Shown piece by piece: positions 7,650 to 34,502 of a stretch of 43,520 nt of DNA. The notes under the pieces are model-generated. The model searched no databases. It had not been told where the DNA came from and saw only the letters and a list, made by a program, of their open reading frames with translations. Made by a program: the position numbers and the translations under genes. Every line of letters starts with the position of its first letter. The first letter of the stretch is position 1. Source of the DNA: a virus; IMG/VR virus record IMGVR_UViG_3300031951_000362, positions 1-43,520 of that record; one strand, written 5' to 3'.

Positions 7650-7800
7650 TTGGGCAGTTGACCGCATTCATACTCTTTGTGAGGAAAATATTGAGAATGC
7701 CCATGCGATTCAATCAGAATTCAGTGAGTGGTTGGATCCAGATATTTTAGATCATGATATTTTCTCATTAGAGTTTATAGGAGACAAAGATGACACTTGA
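7612..7800 (+). CDS. Small acidic hypothetical protein
   Basis: 62 residues, strongly acidic, for example EFSEWLDPDILDHDIFSLEF. It starts inside the end of the GIY-YIG gene and overlaps the start of the C39-type peptidase gene by 11 bases, a packing typical of phage operons. No family recognised, no export signal or membrane segment. The Shine-Dalgarno is weak. Confidence 0.55.
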   Translation: MVTLEQTLQTTHDWAVDRIHTLCEENIENAHAIQSEFSEWLDPDILDHDIFSLEFIGDKDDT

Positions 7801-8461
7801 CCTTCATAACTTTTTCAAGTATTACGACGAAAACAATTCAAATCATGTTGCGGCAGTTCAGTGGTTAGAAGATAACCTACCTGCTAACTTCATGGATGAT
7901 TCAGAGACTGACTGGATTGGTATCTTTAGAACGAAACCACCAACTCCAGAAGTTCTTGCAGTTCCATACTATAACCAAGTAGACAACTACAGAGATGCAC
8001 ATAGAACTTGCAACTCTTCATCGTGCGCTATGTGTTTATCTTTCCTCAAGCCAGGAAGCATTAAAGGCGACGATGAGTATGTTAAGAAAGTATTTGAGAT
8101 TGGTGATACAACGGACCACGCCGTTCAGACGAAAGTTTTGGCGGCTTATGGAGTTAAGTCACACTTTAGTTACAATCTATCTTTTGCTGATATTGATAAA
8201 AGTTTGGACGCTGGGAAGCCAGTTGTTATTGGCATCCTTCATAGGGGTTCTCTTTCTGCACCTACTGGTGGGCATATGTGTGTCGTCATTGGTAAAACCC
8301 CAGATGGAAAGGGATATTACATAAACGATCCATACGGTTCTCTCAACGACAACTACACTGGACCTGTGACGAATGGTAAGAAGACCATTTATACCAAAGC
8401 AGTTCTTAAGCACCGCTGGTGTCCAGGAGGGAACGATGGATGGGGCAGAATCTTCGATTAA
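7790..8461 (+). CDS. C39-like cysteine peptidase with phage N-terminal module
   Basis: 223 residues. Residues 4-31 (LHNFFKYYDENNSNHV, then AVQWLEDNLP) form a module shared with the lysozyme encoded next door. The rest has the papain-like C39 layout: VPYYNQVDNYRDAHRTCNSS with Cys in TCNSSSCAM as probable nucleophile, GGHMCVVIG with the catalytic His, and INDPYG with the Asp. Proteins of this fold cut peptides, often in cell walls. No signal peptide, so it acts from the virion or reaches the wall after lysis begins. AGGAGA lies upstream of ATG 7790. A wall-peptide endopeptidase working with the lysozyme is the likeliest role; the substrate is inferred. Confidence 0.8.
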   Translation: MTLDLHNFFKYYDENNSNHVAAVQWLEDNLPANFMDDSETDWIGIFRTKPPTPEVLAVPYYNQVDNYRDAHRTCNSSSCAMCLSFLKPGSIKGDDEYVKKVFEIGDTTDHAVQTKVLAAYGVKSHFSYNLSFADIDKSLDAGKPVVIGILHRGSLSAPTGGHMCVVIGKTPDGKGYYINDPYGSLNDNYTGPVTNGKKTIYTKAVLKHRWCPGGNDGWGRIFD

Positions 8462-8582
8462 TTTTAAAAGAAAGATGCTCAAGGTGATTAAAGACCTCAC
8501 AAATAATGGAAAGCATGTAGAAGCAAGTCAACTGTATCAAAAGTATTTCGGAGACAACAATGGCACGAATCGACCTTCATAA
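8436..8582 (+). CDS. Small hypothetical protein between peptidase and lysozyme
   Basis: 48 residues, overlapping the end of the C39-like gene by 26 bases and the start of the lysozyme gene by 23 bases. AGGAGGG at 8425-8431 sits four bases before ATG 8436. The sequence (KRKMLKVIKDLTNNGKHVEA) is basic and helical, with no recognised family. A second in-frame ATG at 8475 is possible. Confidence 0.5.
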   Translation: MDGAESSINFKRKMLKVIKDLTNNGKHVEASQLYQKYFGDNNGTNRPS

Positions 8583-9225
8583 CTTTTTTAAGTTCTACGA
8601 CGAAAGAAACCCTAACCATGTGAAAGCAGTTCAGTGGTTAGAAGATAATCTTCCCGTCAAATATTTGGAAGATAATATTGACTGGGCAGAAATCTATAGA
8701 GGAAAAAAGTCTAGTGCTGCACCAGCCCCTGCTGCTGCAGCTCCTGTAACTGCGAGTGGTGATGTCCCTATGATGGGCATCAAGTTGATCAAAGAGTTTG
8801 AGGGATGTCATTTAAATGCATACCCTGACCCTCTTTCTGGTGGACTTCCAATCACTATTGGTTGGGGTTCTACCCGTAAGAAAGATGGTTCTCCTTTCAA
8901 ACTTGGTGAATCAATCACTCAACAGGAAGCTGATGACCTACTGATTAGTCAGTGTAAGAGTCAGTTTATTCCAGCACTTCAAAAGATTCCTCATTGGAAT
9001 GAAATGTCAGATGGTAAAAGAGGCGCTCTATTATCTTTCGCTTACAATCTTGGTGCTGGGTTTTACGGTGGCGATAATTTTAATACCATTACTAAGCGAC
9101 TTAAAAATAAGGAGTGGGATTTAGTCCCTGATGCTCTTTATCTCTATCGTAATCCTGGTTCAAATGTAGAGGCAGGACTCGCAAGACGCCGCAAGGCAGA
9201 AGGCGAAGCGTGGAAGAAAGGATAA
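8560..9225 (+). CDS. T4-type lysozyme (GH24 muramidase) with N-terminal module
   Basis: 221 residues. Residues 1-36 repeat the module of the preceding peptidase (DLHNFFKFYDERNPNHV, then AVQWLEDNLP). An Ala/Pro linker (about 51-66) leads to a GH24 domain: IKEFEGCHLNAYPDPLSGG carries the catalytic Glu, with downstream Asp and the Thr of GWGST matching the Glu-Asp-Thr triad of T4 lysozyme. It cleaves the glycan strand of peptidoglycan. No signal peptide, so as an endolysin it would need a holin; as a virion part it would act at entry. The shared module suggests both wall enzymes dock to the same partner. Confidence 0.9.
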   Translation: MARIDLHNFFKFYDERNPNHVKAVQWLEDNLPVKYLEDNIDWAEIYRGKKSSAAPAPAAAAPVTASGDVPMMGIKLIKEFEGCHLNAYPDPLSGGLPITIGWGSTRKKDGSPFKLGESITQQEADDLLISQCKSQFIPALQKIPHWNEMSDGKRGALLSFAYNLGAGFYGGDNFNTITKRLKNKEWDLVPDALYLYRNPGSNVEAGLARRRKAEGEAWKKG

Positions 9226-9228
9226 ATA
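9221..9228 (+). promoter_or_regulatory. Late promoter variant before the exported protein gene
   Basis: GATAAATA overlapping the lysozyme stop codon. A start near 9235 gives a leader of about 130 bases before ATG 9365. Confidence 0.6.
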
Positions 9229-9282
9229 AGATACAGTCATAACTGATTTTGATCTTAATGGTCTGAATCTACATAGTCCGAG

Positions 9283-9364
9283 TCCTCTGTGATTCGGTGA
9301 ATACTTTACTTTTCATACTTCGGTTTGTTTCGTTTAGTACACACTGAACTCACAGAGGATTTTT
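9283..9364 (+). promoter_or_regulatory. Leader stem that covers the ribosome binding site
   Basis: TCCTCTGTGA (9283-9292) is perfectly complementary to TCACAGAGGA (9350-9359), which contains the only Shine-Dalgarno (AGAGGA) before ATG 9365. The ten-base stem encloses 57 bases. The upstream strand also lies in the loop of a CCGA/TCGG hairpin (9278-9281 with 9294-9297), which could compete with it. Translation is therefore likely to be switched by refolding, a ligand, temperature or a ribosome. Confidence 0.65.
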
Positions 9365-10945
9365 ATGTCTTACACTAAGAAGGCGTTGGCTGCAGCGTCT
9401 GCATTATTAATGGGCACATTGCCTACAGCAGCATTGGCGCATACAAACTCTATTGGTTATGTTGGGGATGGGCAAGGTGGTATTACTTTCTGGTATGGAT
9501 CTTGGCACGGTGGAACTAACTTTAATGAAGCAGAAATTAAGTTAGAAGGTGCCAATGGAACCAGTTATACAACCACAATCAATCAATTTAATCTACTTGA
9601 GAGTTCAACTCCTGCTGGTTTGATTCCTGGAACAAACTACTTCACATCTGATGGAACCCAGTTAGTTCCTTATGGTGATCCTAATGGTGGTGGAGATTCT
9701 TACACATGGCAGGGTCTAAACTTCACTGGACTTTCTGCTGGTGACTATACCTTCACATATATTCCTTTAGGTGATGTTGAGTCCTACTGTACTACCTGTT
9801 CTCCAACGGCAGACTGGATGCCTATGGATAATATTATTCGTAGTGCTACTGTAACTCTTTCAGCAACACTTCTTTCTGGTGATGCTAACCAGAATGGAAT
9901 CCTGGATATCTATGAGTTTGGAACAGTACAACAACCATCAACACCAACTCTGGTAAGTTCTGTAACCAATCCATATTCTCAGTCTGTTGTTACTACAATA
10001 ACCGAAACCCCATCAGAAGCAGATGGTGTTCAGACTGTTGATAGAAACACCAGAACTGATACAACCACAACATATGCGACTGTAGATACTTATAGTGATA
10101 ACTCTACAACAACCGCATACTCAAGTTCTACTGTAACTACAAACGCAGCAGATAAGTTTACTGGACGCATTGACCAGTATCAAATGCTTGATAAGGTCGG
10201 TAATACTCTTCGTGGTGCCCTTAACCATACTCCTTCTCAAACCAAAGAGAAAGTTAGAGTCTTTTCCAAAAACTATCTTGGATGGGCACACGGAGACTAT
10301 GGATACTACGGCACTTCTACCATTCTTGGAACTGGTGTAGAGATTGATGTAAAACCAACTTGGACTATTGGTGGTCAGTATAATAATGTAAGTGTTGATT
10401 TAACTGGTGCCGACAGCACTTCGAGTCTTTCTAAAGAACACTTTGGTGTATTCAGTATGATGCGTGGTAATACATTATCACTTCGCACCAATGCTGGATA
10501 TGCTCTCAACAAGTATTCTGTTTCCAGAAATGTTGCTGGTGTATTCAATAATGATAGTGCTTCTAATGGGCAAGAGTGGTGGGTCAACAACAGACTCTAT
10601 TGGAATGCTCATAAGAATATCACTCCATTCGTAGGACACACTGTAAGTAATGTTTGTAGAGATGCCTTTAGTGAGAATGGTTCAGTTCAGTCTGCTAGAA
10701 GTGTTGGTGACTACAACAAGACAGAGAATGTCGGTGAAGTTGGTGTAAATGTTTCTCACCGCTTTGGTGGTAAGAAGAAAGATAAGTTTGGTGTTGCTTT
10801 AGAAGCATCCGTGAATACTAATACTGATGTGGAAGTTATTGCCTCTGTTGACTATAACCAAACTATTTTCATTGAAGGACTTCACCAGATTGCTGATGGT
10901 ATTAACAACACTCAAGTAGCAGCAAAGGTCAAATTTAGATTCTAA
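9365..10945 (+). CDS. Exported autotransporter-like outer-membrane protein
   Basis: 526 residues. A signal peptide (KKALAAASALLMGTLPTAAL, cleavage after ALA near residue 25) leads to a Gly/Thr-rich passenger. A calcium-loop motif DANQNGILDIYE (about residues 173-184) matches an EF-hand or dockerin-type loop. After a Ser/Thr linker (about 195-265), the last 260 residues alternate like beta strands and finish VAAKVKFRF; a terminal Phe is the usual outer-membrane barrel signal. The layout resembles an autotransporter. A phage gene for an outer-membrane protein would alter the surface of the infected host (adhesion, exclusion, nutrient uptake) or be a secretory fusion with a virion role. Function inferred; export and barrel features are seen. 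Confidence 0.75.
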   Translation: MSYTKKALAAASALLMGTLPTAALAHTNSIGYVGDGQGGITFWYGSWHGGTNFNEAEIKLEGANGTSYTTTINQFNLLESSTPAGLIPGTNYFTSDGTQLVPYGDPNGGGDSYTWQGLNFTGLSAGDYTFTYIPLGDVESYCTTCSPTADWMPMDNIIRSATVTLSATLLSGDANQNGILDIYEFGTVQQPSTPTLVSSVTNPYSQSVVTTITETPSEADGVQTVDRNTRTDTTTTYATVDTYSDNSTTTAYSSSTVTTNAADKFTGRIDQYQMLDKVGNTLRGALNHTPSQTKEKVRVFSKNYLGWAHGDYGYYGTSTILGTGVEIDVKPTWTIGGQYNNVSVDLTGADSTSSLSKEHFGVFSMMRGNTLSLRTNAGYALNKYSVSRNVAGVFNNDSASNGQEWWVNNRLYWNAHKNITPFVGHTVSNVCRDAFSENGSVQSARSVGDYNKTENVGEVGVNVSHRFGGKKKDKFGVALEASVNTNTDVEVIASVDYNQTIFIEGLHQIADGINNTQVAAKVKFRF

Positions 10946-17529: not shown

Positions 17530-17889
17530 ATGTTTAAATCCGCAATCGCAGCTGTTGCTGCTGCTCCTTTCCTTGCTTCGGCTGCGTTCGCTGGCCCTTA
17601 TGTTAATGTAGAATCTAACGCTGGTGTCGTTGGTTCTGACTACATCGGTACTCTGACCGAAGCACATCTTGGTTATGAAGGTGCTCTGTCTCCTACCGTT
17701 AACGGTTATGTTCAGGTTGGTCCTGCACTGTCCACTCCTGAAGGTGGTGACGCAACCGTTAAGGTTTCTGGTAAGGCAGGTGCTTCTGTTGCCGCTACCG
17801 ACAACCTGAGCGTCTATGGTGAGTACTGGTTCCTGACTGGTGATGACCTGACCAGCAACATCAAGGCTGGTGTGAAGTACACCTTCTGA
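17530..17889 (+). CDS. Small outer-membrane-like beta-barrel protein, copy 1
   Basis: 119 residues. Signal peptide MFKSAIAAVAAAPFLASAAF ending AFA, then GPYVNVES. The mature 98 residues alternate hydrophobic and polar residues in short strands (LGYEGALS, NGYVQVGPAL, LSVYGEYWFL) and end AGVKYTF, with the terminal Phe typical of outer-membrane barrels. Too short for a classic porin alone; it may form a small or oligomeric barrel. Paralogue of the 18023 product. Strong promoter, stable leader and its own terminator suggest high expression. It may change permeability or surface properties of the infected host; inferred. Confidence 0.75.
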   Translation: MFKSAIAAVAAAPFLASAAFAGPYVNVESNAGVVGSDYIGTLTEAHLGYEGALSPTVNGYVQVGPALSTPEGGDATVKVSGKAGASVAATDNLSVYGEYWFLTGDDLTSNIKAGVKYTF

Positions 17890-18022: not shown

Positions 18023-18406
18023 ATGAAAGCAATCGCTCTTGCCGCAATGGCACTTCCGATGATTGCGGCACCTGCCCTTGCTGGTCCATATGTAGAAAGT
18101 AAGACCACCTCTGGTATCTCTGTTACCAGTGATAAGAGCACCTACAAAGGTTCTCAAACCGAACTTCGTGTTGGTTATGATGAAAAGGTTGGTAAGTCTG
18201 GTCTGAAAGTCTATGGCGAAATCGGTCCTGGTTATGAGTTCAACACTGGTAAAACTAAGAGTGAAGGTGTTGCCGTTGGTGAAGTAGGTTTCTCTTATCC
18301 TCTTGCTAAGAAAGTTTCCCTCAAAGGGAAAGTTGCTGGTGAGTATGGTATGAGTTCTGAGGTCCTTGATCTTGGTGGTGAAGTTAAAGTTCGTTATAGC
18401 TTCTGA
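18023..18406 (+). CDS. Small outer-membrane-like beta-barrel protein, copy 2
   Basis: 127 residues. Signal peptide MKAIALAAMALPMIAAPALA then GPYVESKT, the same mature start (GPYV) as the 17530 product. Strand-like repeats (LRVGYDEKVG, LKVYGEIGPGYEF, VGEVGFSYPLAKK) and C-terminal VKVRYSF again fit an outer-membrane barrel. AAGGAGA at 18011 is a strong ribosome site. It lies just past the terminator of copy 1, so it needs its own promoter or read-through. Confidence 0.75.
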   Translation: MKAIALAAMALPMIAAPALAGPYVESKTTSGISVTSDKSTYKGSQTELRVGYDEKVGKSGLKVYGEIGPGYEFNTGKTKSEGVAVGEVGFSYPLAKKVSLKGKVAGEYGMSSEVLDLGGEVKVRYSF

Positions 18407-19069: not shown

Positions 19070-19113
19070 TTATTAGAGTTTACTGACAACTTAATAGAAA
19101 CGGAGACTTATGT

Positions 19114-19121
19114 TATAAATA
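19114..19121 (+). promoter_or_regulatory. T4-type late promoter before the HNH gene
   Basis: Exact TATAAATA, 23 bases before ATG 19144. Mobile endonuclease genes in T4-like phages often have their own late promoter. Confidence 0.78.
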
Positions 19122-19143
19122 ATAATAGGTCTTTGTTTCTATT

Positions 19144-19680
19144 ATGAATAGTTGTCTAAACTGCGGATGCGAGCACGATAAACCTAAGTTCTGCTCCCGA
19201 TCCTGTGCCGCCATTTATAATAACAAAAATACGCCCAAGCGTAAGAGAACCGCCTGGAAGACTGCCACTTGCCAACACTGTGGTGTGGAGTTTGACTACC
19301 AGACCAAGAAGAGCACTGGTAAGTTTTGCTCCAATGAGTGTAGTGCCGCTGGTAGGAAGAAACTAAAAGTAGAGAACTGGTTGGCGGGCAACGCATTATC
19401 AACTGATAGGGGGGATACGCCAGGATACATAAGAAACTATCTACTGGAAGCGAGCGGGGGTAAGTGTTCTCTTTGTGGTTGGTCTGGCACAAACATCCAT
19501 ACAGGACGAATCTGCCTTGAGGTGGACCACATAGACGACGACCCTTTTAACCATTCTCCTGAAAACCTACAAGTGGTCTGTCCTAATTGTCACGCACAAA
19601 AAACTTTACCGCCCCAGAAGAGTAAAGGTGGGCGTTATAGTAAGGACAAGCAACATCCGAAGTTTCATATAAATAACTGA
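19144..19680 (+). CDS. HNH endonuclease with zinc fingers
   Basis: 178 residues. Two N-terminal CxxC-type knuckles (CLNCGCEHDKPKFCSRSC and CQHCGVEF...CSNECS) suit DNA recognition. The nuclease core is CSLCGWSG, LEVDHIDDDPFNHSPENLQV and CPNCHAQK, with the DH of VDHIDDD, an Asn in PENLQ and the zinc-binding Cys pairs in place. It probably cuts DNA as a free-standing homing enzyme, spreading itself between related phages. Flanked by late promoters on both sides and set amid small conserved genes, which fits a mobile insertion. Confidence 0.88.
   Translation: MNSCLNCGCEHDKPKFCSRSCAAIYNNKNTPKRKRTAWKTATCQHCGVEFDYQTKKSTGKFCSNECSAAGRKKLKVENWLAGNALSTDRGDTPGYIRNYLLEASGGKCSLCGWSGTNIHTGRICLEVDHIDDDPFNHSPENLQVVCPNCHAQKTLPPQKSKGGRYSKDKQHPKFHINN
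19668..19675 (+). promoter_or_regulatory. T4-type late promoter before the zinc-ribbon gene
   Basis: Exact TATAAATA within the last codons of the HNH gene, 29 bases before ATG 19704. It may have driven the downstream gene before the HNH gene arrived. Confidence 0.7.
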
Positions 19681-22189: not shown

Positions 22190-22345
22190 GGTGGAGTCAA
22201 TCCCCAATATGCCCGTGATGGAGACACGATAAAAACCCTGGTGCGGATGGGGTATACCCCGCCCAGTTTCTTGCTTCTGGACAAAGAGCAAGTGGCGTGC
22301 ATGTAAAGACCTAATGAGGACGGCTTGCGCGAGTCGTCCTTTTTT
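22190..22345 (+). ncRNA. Structured leader RNA of the glycan operon
   Basis: About 150 gene-free bases full of pairings: CGTG/CACG (22214 and 22225), GGGG-TATA-CCCC (22249-22260) competing with CTGG-T-GCGG against CCGC-CCAG (22239-22247 with 22259-22266), CTTGCT/AGCAAG (around 22270-22292), and a final terminator hairpin. Alternative pairings plus a terminator just before the first gene are the layout of a transcription attenuator or riboswitch. The wcaG RNA motif, known upstream of exopolysaccharide genes and in cyanophages, is a candidate to test. Confidence 0.55.
22317..22345 (+). terminator. Terminator at the end of the leader
   Basis: GGACGGCT (22318-22325) pairs with AGTCGTCC (22332-22339), one G-U, loop TGCGCG, then TTTTTT. 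It lies 25 bases before the first glycosyltransferase gene, so it must be bypassed or regulated for the operon to be read from upstream. Confidence 0.85.
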
Positions 22346-33007: not shown

Positions 33008-33164
33008 GTTACGGAATGTAACTTTCCGAAACAAGTTGTAACACTCCTGCCGCTTGACCGAGACTAGGCAGGGTTACCAATCCGTCTCTCATATCCCCGC
33101 TAAGGGTGCGGGGAGCATAGTATCTCCACCATTTCCCTGATGGTCTTACTATCTTTTTAAAAAA
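33008..33164 (+). ncRNA. Structured psbA leader with possible pseudoknot
   Basis: Gene-free leader. GTAAC...CCTGCC (33038-33051) pairs with GGCAGG-GTTAC (33067-33077). GAGAC (33060-33064) in its loop can pair with GTCTC (33084-33088), making a pseudoknot. CCCCGC/GCGGGG (33095-33113) and CCAT/ATGG (33129-33143) follow. PhotoRC RNA motifs are known before psbA in cyanobacteria and cyanophages and are the first candidates. Confidence 0.6.
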
Positions 33165-34502
33165 ATGGCTGCTTCTATTGCACAACAACGACAATCGAAT
33201 ACTTGGGAACAATTCTGCAACTGGGTCACCTCAACCGATAATCGTCTTTATGTCGGTTGGTTCGGAGTCCTGATGATTCCTTGCCTGCTTGCTGCTACGA
33301 CTTGTTTCATCATCGCCTTCATCGGTGCTCCCCCTGTGGACATTGATGGAATCCGTGAACCCGTTGCTGGTTCACTCATGTACGGAAACAACATCATCTC
33401 TGGTGCTGTTATTCCTTCGTCCAATGCTATTGGACTGCACTTTTACCCCATCTGGGAAGCTTCTTCCCTAGATGAGTGGCTATATAATGGAGGACCTTTC
33501 CAACTGGTCGTCTTCCACTTTCTGATCGGCATCTATGCTTACATGGGACGCGAATGGGAACTTTCTTACCGACTCGGTATGCGTCCTTGGATTTGTGTTG
33601 CCTACTCTGCACCCGTTGCTGCTGCTAGCGCAGTGTTCCTGGTCTATCCCTTCGGTCAAGGATCCTTCTCTGATGCGATGCCTCTGGGGATTTCAGGCAC
33701 TTTCAACTACATGCTTGTTTTCCAGGCAGAACACAACATTCTTATGCATCCTTTCCACATGCTGGGAGTTGCTGGGGTCTTCGGTGGTTCTCTTTTCTCT
33801 GCTATGCATGGATCTCTTGTCACCTCTTCTCTTGTCCGCGAGACGACAGAGAATGAGTCACAGAACTATGGATACAAGTTCGGACAAGAAGAAGAGACCT
33901 ACAACATTGTAGCCGCTCACGGTTATTTCGGTCGCCTTATTTTTCAATATGCTTCCTTTAATAACTCCCGTTCGCTGCACTTCTTCCTTGCTGCCTGGCC
34001 TGTTGTAGGCATCTGGTTCACCGCTCTTGGTGTTTCCACGATGGCTTTCAACCTCAACGGCTTTAATTTCAACCAGTCTATTGTTGATAGTCAAGGAAAA
34101 GTTATTAACACTTGGGCTGATGTTCTCAACCGTGCTGGACTGGGCATGGAGGTAATGCACGAAAGGAACGCTAGACTTGTTGGTGTTCTTGCCTAGTAAT
34201 AGGCATTAGTAAAATCGGGTTAAACGGGGAAACTCTCTATGAGACAATCCCGTACCAAGTCAGAAAGGGTTTAAGTTTTCTGAAAGGTCTAACGACTAGG
34301 TAGTGAGTCCCAACAATAATCTACCCACGAATGCCCGACTCCTTAATAAACATAAGGATGAAGAGATAGTCTGAACTTACTGGCGACAGTAAGAAGTAAA
34401 GAATAAAGAGTCTTTACGATAACACATTTGCACAATTTCCCACTTGATCTTGCTGCTGCCGAGTCAACTCCTGTTGCACTCACCGCACCTGCAATTGGTT
34501 GA
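33165..34502 (+). CDS. psbA: Photosystem II D1 protein, split by a group I intron
   Basis: Coding segments 33165-34172 and 34431-34502 join to 359 residues (usual 360). Without splicing the frame ends RLVGVLA, which is not D1. Key residues are in place: Tyr161 (TyrZ), Asp170, Glu189, His190, His198, His215, His332, Glu333, and after splicing His337, Asp342 and Ala344, followed by a 15-residue C-terminal extension for CtpA processing. Residue 130 is Glu, the high-light D1 form. D1 carries the Mn cluster and reaction-centre pigments in the thylakoid. Phage D1 replaces damaged host D1. No Shine-Dalgarno before the ATG. The intron separates the C-terminal Mn ligands, so unspliced mRNA gives a dead protein. 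Confidence 0.97.
34173..34430 (+). ncRNA. Group I intron in psbA
   Basis: 258 bases, no internal gene. P1: exon end GAACGCT (34166-34172) pairs with guide GGTGTTC (34182-34188), putting U34172 in the required U-G pair; the intron ends in G (34430). P10: TTGT (34177-34180) with ACAA of exon 2. P3: GGCATT (34202-34207) with AATGCC (34330-34335). P7: GACTA (34294-34298) with TAGTC (34367-34371). P8: TCCTTA/TAAGGA (34340-34345, 34353-34358). A GGTAG/CTACC hairpin between P7 and P3 hints at subgroup IA. P9: CTTACTG-GCGA-CAGTAAG (34376-34393). Cyanophage S-PM2 is known to have a psbA group I intron. Confidence 0.95.

Follow-up and report, generated by a model that had tools for sequence, protein, structure and literature searches.

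Judged by comparison of leader sequences, the long hairpin (LH) that ends just before the start codon of an autotransporter-like gene in the window (the whole stretch of viral DNA analysed, 43,520 nt) is a real conserved RNA element of cyanophages, whose shape is kept while its letters change. It probably acts in cis to gate translation of this gene, as part of the 5' leader on its late transcripts.

The window comes from the genome of a T4-like cyanophage, with ribonucleotide reductase, lysozyme, PhotoRC-II and wcaG RNAs, a group I intron, and tRNAs; the autotransporter-like gene adjoins lysis genes (Table 1). The C39-peptidase and lysozyme genes (7790-9225) have related N-terminal stretches of about 50 residues, 56-64% identical. 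Elsewhere, the wcaG RNA (22213-22345) is followed directly by a terminator-like hairpin and T run, while the PhotoRC-II leader (33033-33128) and the group I intron (34161-34393) lie around ORF 33165-34196, presumably psbA.

Table 1. Features of the leader and its flanking genes (window coordinates).
Feature	Position	Strand	Basis
Lysozyme gene, 5' neighbour of the autotransporter-like gene	8560..9225	+	Phage_lysozyme PF00959
TAAATA, core of the T4-type late-promoter motif TATAAATA; overlaps the stop codon of the lysozyme gene	9223..9228	+	motif; promoter use inferred
P1, small upstream hairpin (GAUUU..GAAUC), weak support	9245..9269	+	folding
ACAUAG, whose MFE partner 9363-9368 spans the start codon	9271..9276	+	MFE fold
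H1, alternative 5' hairpin, excludes LH	9278..9297 (9278-9284 with 9291-9297, loop 9285-9290)	+	folding and family evidence
LH, long leader hairpin	9280..9364	+	5' arm from 9280, 3' arm to ~9361, pyrimidine-rich tract up to the AUG
AGAGGA, Shine-Dalgarno-like element within the LH 3' arm	9354..9359	+	sequence
Outer-membrane protein, autotransporter translocator fold, 526 aa, phage-encoded	9365..10945	+	AlphaFold2 model and PDB fold matches

The initial annotation described two 10-base arms that pair across 57 bases and bury AGAGGA. Both positions and pairing are exact in the window: TCCTCTGTGA occupies 9283-9292 and TCACAGAGGA 9350-9359, with 57 nt between them, and 5 nt separate the end of AGAGGA from the ATG. 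These arms are the core of a longer hairpin than first described; in the MFE fold of 9270-9400 (-48.2 kcal/mol, z -6.5; none of 200 shuffles reached this energy), the lower stem begins at 9280 with about 20 pairs in succession and one bulge, and further pairs continue to the apex. The hairpin folded alone has about -32 kcal/mol. Among 45 window ORF leaders tested, this one has the lowest z (-6.38; the next is -4.99), but 15 of 4342 overlapping 100-nt segments of the window fold tighter in raw energy, so that the region is not unique by energy alone. The MFE also pairs ACAUAG with the start codon region; the corresponding columns are paired in just 17-18 of 33 type A and B MFEs (types defined below), and covariation cannot be shown for this pairing because the AUG is invariant. 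P1 forms in both nascent and full-length leader folds, with p ≤ 0.05 against shuffles in just 13 of 40 A and B leaders and 10 of 19 type C leaders (window p 0.174).

Conservation was assessed over leaders of the homologous gene on virus contigs. A first scan gave 69 loci, which with the window and two named phages reduce to 45 distinct leaders; a second, of 39 further virus loci, added 22 more, for a total of 67 after identical leaders were merged. Five loci of the first scan that lacked a start or sufficient upstream DNA were dropped (L014, L019, L022, L026, L049), as were three of the second (L082, L083, L113). By a structural criterion LH is present in 60 of the 67 (41 of 45 in the first set, 19 of 22 in the second), and in every one of these 60 it stops 3-6 nt short of the AUG; the leaders scored as lacking it are L006, L010, L023 (a partial gene of doubtful start, scored as a miss), L055, L094, L095, and L110. 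Because the structure alone was also found in 146 of 1340 shuffles and at 9 of 120 DSL-LC03 starts, a cut-off on hairpin energy was added; at -22 kcal/mol or lower, the counts are 61 of 67 leaders vs. 23 of 1340 shuffles. Such hairpins are no rarity in front of DSL-LC03 starts, at least 6 of 120 of which reach this value, and one (L075:42425, -31.8) is lower than the phage's own autotransporter leader (-25.3). Ranked by arm-duplex energy among all ATG starts, the autotransporter start takes second place in both phages, surpassed in DSL-LC03 by a pair of overlapping starts within the lysozyme gene and in DSL-LC02 by a start within another gene. A search of bacterial genomes found four weak relatives (L116-L119), none with LH by the structural criterion; these are excluded from the viral counts.

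The first-set leaders with LH fall by eye into three sequence types, A (n = 27), B (n = 6), and C (n = 8). In a MAFFT alignment of the 33 A and B leaders, not fitted to structure, 92.6% of LH cells are paired, against 34-47% when the partner is slid, and both sides have changed in 12 of 26 pairs, in 52 cells vs. 16.4 in shuffles (0 of 500 as many). The eight type C leaders have 91.3% of cells paired, with both sides changed in 4 of 19 pairs (7 cells). Related leaders are not independent of each other. The initial annotation would have given up its proposal for arms neither conserved nor compensated in relatives; the arms are conserved, with many compensatory changes. LH also stays with its gene where the gene 5' of it differs: in L003, L004, L011, L015, and L061 this is a DUF6450 gene rather than lysozyme, and LH is retained. 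It is therefore a leader of the autotransporter gene, and a role as lysozyme terminator is ruled out.

The downstream protein was called autotransporter-like in the initial annotation, and its predicted fold bears this out. The AlphaFold2 model (mean pLDDT 76.9, pTM 0.54) has a C-terminal barrel of 12 strands preceded by a helix at residues 271-281; its best PDB matches are NalP structures 1uyn (E 1.3e-10) and 1uyo (TM-score by target 0.80), followed by EstA, Hbp, and EspP, all autotransporter translocators. On this model the product has an autotransporter-type barrel, with the 12-strand C-terminal translocator found in such proteins, while secretion of a passenger is putative. Neither Pfam nor PHROGs gave a match for it. 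The gene has annotated relatives in the Synechococcus phages DSL-LC02 and DSL-LC03 (Kyanoviridae), and DSL-LC03 annotates its copy as an autotransporter barrel protein. The words autotransporter, outer membrane, hairpin, and lysozyme are all absent from the main text of the paper on these phages (PMC10611076). The passages of PMC9146016 consulted treat YadA-type phage structural proteins, a separate subject. Two small Phage_OMP (PF24653) outer-membrane barrel genes, at 17530-17889 and 18023-18406 of the window, are separate from the large autotransporter-like gene.

The idea that the stem hides the only ribosome site of the gene holds for AGAGGA in the window and fails as a general principle. 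Between -18 and -4, 24 of 27 type A leaders have an SD-like 4-mer, against 0 of 6 of type B and 0 of 8 of type C (0 of 20 for type C with the second set included); 70 of 120 annotated DSL-LC03 starts examined also lack one. What is common to all types is a helix, a short pyrimidine-rich spacer, and the AUG. With the arm of types B and C free of SD-like motifs, LH cannot act by SD burial alone, and burial as the conserved principle is ruled out. The layout had further been called a classical one for a translational switch. Compensated arms, and an exclusive hairpin in two of the three types, are consistent with this at the level of sequence; general SD burial, again, is not. Of the kinds of switch proposed, namely a riboswitch, a thermosensor, or trans-RNA control, a thermosensor seems unlikely for a helix as stable as this, with an arm lacking an SD-like motif in types B and C; RNA thermometers have a marginally stable helix over the SD that opens near growth temperature, and this candidate was rejected. 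A small-molecule riboswitch also seems unlikely, in that no unpaired core is common to types A/B and C, and there is no Rfam match; loop letters are, however, well conserved within type A. As to proteins that might act here, RegA has its T4 binding sites at AUGs or immediately 5' of them, according to the sections of PMC3014915 consulted, and is annotated as "translation repressor" in both DSL-LC02 and DSL-LC03; it could act at the LH leader too.

The alternative hairpin of the initial annotation, said to take the upstream strand into its loop, does exist in the window as H1 and is kept in types A and B. In the window it has -8.6 kcal/mol (p 0.017, or 0.037 if the null preserves the pairs of LH and 0.072 for a longer segment). 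Across the A and B leaders, 90.3% of the cells of its 7 pairs are paired, vs. 17-46% when slid, and both partners differ in 9 cells (0/500 shuffles), while counts for pairs changed on both sides (87 of 500) and for pair types (133 of 500) are unexceptional. Under the null that keeps LH pairs, p ≤ 0.05 is reached in 22 of 27 type A leaders and 4 of 6 of type B, but 0 of 8 of type C. On longer segments from both sets the figures are 25 of 42 for A and B (6 of 7 for new viral ones) and 1 of 20 for C; the 42 comprise 40 viral and two MAG loci, the latter being the bacterial-genome relatives L118 and L119, which passed a looser criterion. On these sequence grounds H1 is taken as real in types A and B and absent from type C. 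In type C, an upstream CAACUC, noticed by eye, is complementary to GAGUUG in the 5' arm and could pair with it, and repeated GAGUUG/CAACUC segments (e.g., L031:250-355) permit several alternative pairings upstream of and within LH.

On its own the 3' arm does not fold: mean self-folding energies in types A and B are -1.6 and -0.2 kcal/mol for this arm, close to its own null, vs. -8.2 and -7.2 for the 5' arm. When nascent chains were folded (13 of the 41 first-set LH leaders), most of types A and B had H1 first and LH as the final structure; in the window itself, the MFE leaves H1 before the 3' arm emerges. Barriers on the path from open to closed were estimated in 24 of the 41 leaders. Most of the type A leaders among them have 7-13 kcal/mol, but L017 has 1.1, type B 2-9, and type C 4-7; given the last three, the barriers do not follow H1 cleanly. 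The values of 7-13 would fit a folding delay.

The T4 late motif is TATAAATA, as given in the sections of PMC3014915 consulted. Its TAAATA core lies upstream of LH in 54 of the 60 leaders that have the hairpin (36 of 41 in the first set) and within LH in none; one of the six others, L085, has a leader shortened by the contig end. A core in this place would be expected to give late transcripts that include all of LH. L010, L094, and L095 form a natural contrast: they have short leaders without LH, with TAAATA 31 nt before the AUG.

This position bears on the likeness to the T4 genes e, soc, 49, and I-TevI, whose transcripts escape inhibitory hairpins through late promoters in the region of the 5' strand (PMC3014915, in part). 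Those too are T4-type phage genes with a helix over the initiation region, as here, where LH ends close to the AUG and the window MFE pairs the AUG itself; here, in contrast, the promoter core is upstream of the whole hairpin, and types A and B have a second, exclusive 5' hairpin. Control of the same kind, with LH silencing read-through transcripts and a late promoter inside the hairpin yielding open ones, is known for the four T4 genes, and the window seems to hold a case of its own, before an HNH gene; with TAAATA never inside LH and so often upstream, it is very improbable for this leader, and the gene e layout, with its promoter in the 5' strand or loop, was rejected. A promoter of another type may lie inside LH. 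The case before the HNH endonuclease gene (19144-19680) consists of 20-nt arms (85% complementary) at 19092-19146, which flank TATAAATA (19114-19121) and reach the start codon; it looks like an early-off, late-on leader of the gene e/I-TevI kind.

A hairpin beside an AUG might have a part in processing or in stability as well, and three further roles deserve consideration. An intrinsic terminator or attenuator is suggested by the long stem and the U-rich tract after it (the final five nt before the AUG are TTTTT in 37 of 60 leaders), with transcripts ending at the U tract to give a short structured RNA, and H1, which occupies the 5' arm as an antiterminator would, letting the polymerase through. 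A terminator scan limited to loops of 3-8 nt does not call LH, however; terminator-like hairpins in front of other genes of the window are built from compact, GC-rich stems with longer T runs, and the T run of 7 of 41 leaders is 3 nt or less. Termination has no need of a 3-6 nt spacing to the AUG, and LH moves with the downstream gene; this role appears unlikely. Much the same can be said of LH as a processing site, cut by host RNase III to free the AUG. Cleavage of long helices by RNase III does free the AUG in some phage leaders, and a helix longer than 20 bp that contains small internal loops, and whose shape, not its sequence, is conserved, would suit the enzyme; the constant spacing and H1 would be left unexplained, and we consider this doubtful as well.

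Protection of the mRNA or promotion of initiation, as hairpins do in T4 genes 25 and 38, whose ribosome sites are split, is less probable still. The T4 precedent (PMC3014915, in part) shares a conserved stem at the initiation region in T4-type phages, and a structured leader immediately before the AUG is what LH provides. The split-site form requires an SD just 5' of the hairpin, whereas an SD-like 4-mer occurs in the 18 nt before LH in 0 of 41 leaders; that form is ruled out.

The reading we prefer, then, is a gate on translation. LH probably limits ribosome starts on the gene, since its shape has been preserved although its letters change. Closed, LH would block the 30S subunit by setting some 20-30 base pairs against the start codon, with or without an SD in the arm. 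During transcription of type A and B leaders, the 5' arm would fold first into H1, leaving the 3' arm and the AUG open until LH replaces H1; ribosomes would load on the nascent RNA, or when something holds H1. H1 most likely makes the A and B leaders either bistable or slow to close. The sequence comparisons above show that LH is conserved, that its pairs are compensated, that its distance from the AUG is constant, and that H1 occurs in types A and B; we infer repression by LH, a transcript start at the upstream late promoter, and the relevance of H1 in the cell.

Whether delayed folding sets the timing is a more speculative matter, and we put it forward tentatively. A late surface protein might be timed co-transcriptionally, H1 holding the leader open and LH then shutting it permanently, so that output would track the rate of transcription rather than the amount of mRNA; this seems a possible but rather unlikely account. 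Type C would then reach the same end through its other upstream partner, CAACUC with GAGUUG. The closest known system in working is the MS2 maturation-gene leader, in which a transient structure allows translation before a stable inhibitory fold forms (PMC6733600, in part). The likeness is one of working only, without sequence relation: MS2 has a cloverleaf, whereas this is a DNA phage with a single long local hairpin, known from folding of its sequence, and the early exclusive hairpin of delayed-folding leaders, present in types A and B, is missing from type C.

LH differs from the conserved structured RNAs already described in T4-like cyanophages. The wcaG and PhotoRC-II RNAs (RF01761, RF01717; PMC2864571, in part), both in the window, are elements separate from LH and constitute Rfam families, whereas LH matches none; its two best Rfam hits are microRNA precursors far under the gathering score, and a known Rfam family is ruled out as its identity. 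No such leader is named in the literature searched, whose coverage left out most subscription papers. LH thus appears to be an undescribed conserved RNA element of cyanophages, tied to one gene.

Should the timer prove true, it would be an MS2-like one of independent origin in T4-like cyanophages, attached to a virus-encoded autotransporter. The 60 natural leaders, in three sequence types, are material for studying a bistable RNA, and if LH does gate translation, it would represent a testable cis-acting control in late genes of the T4-like cyanophages.
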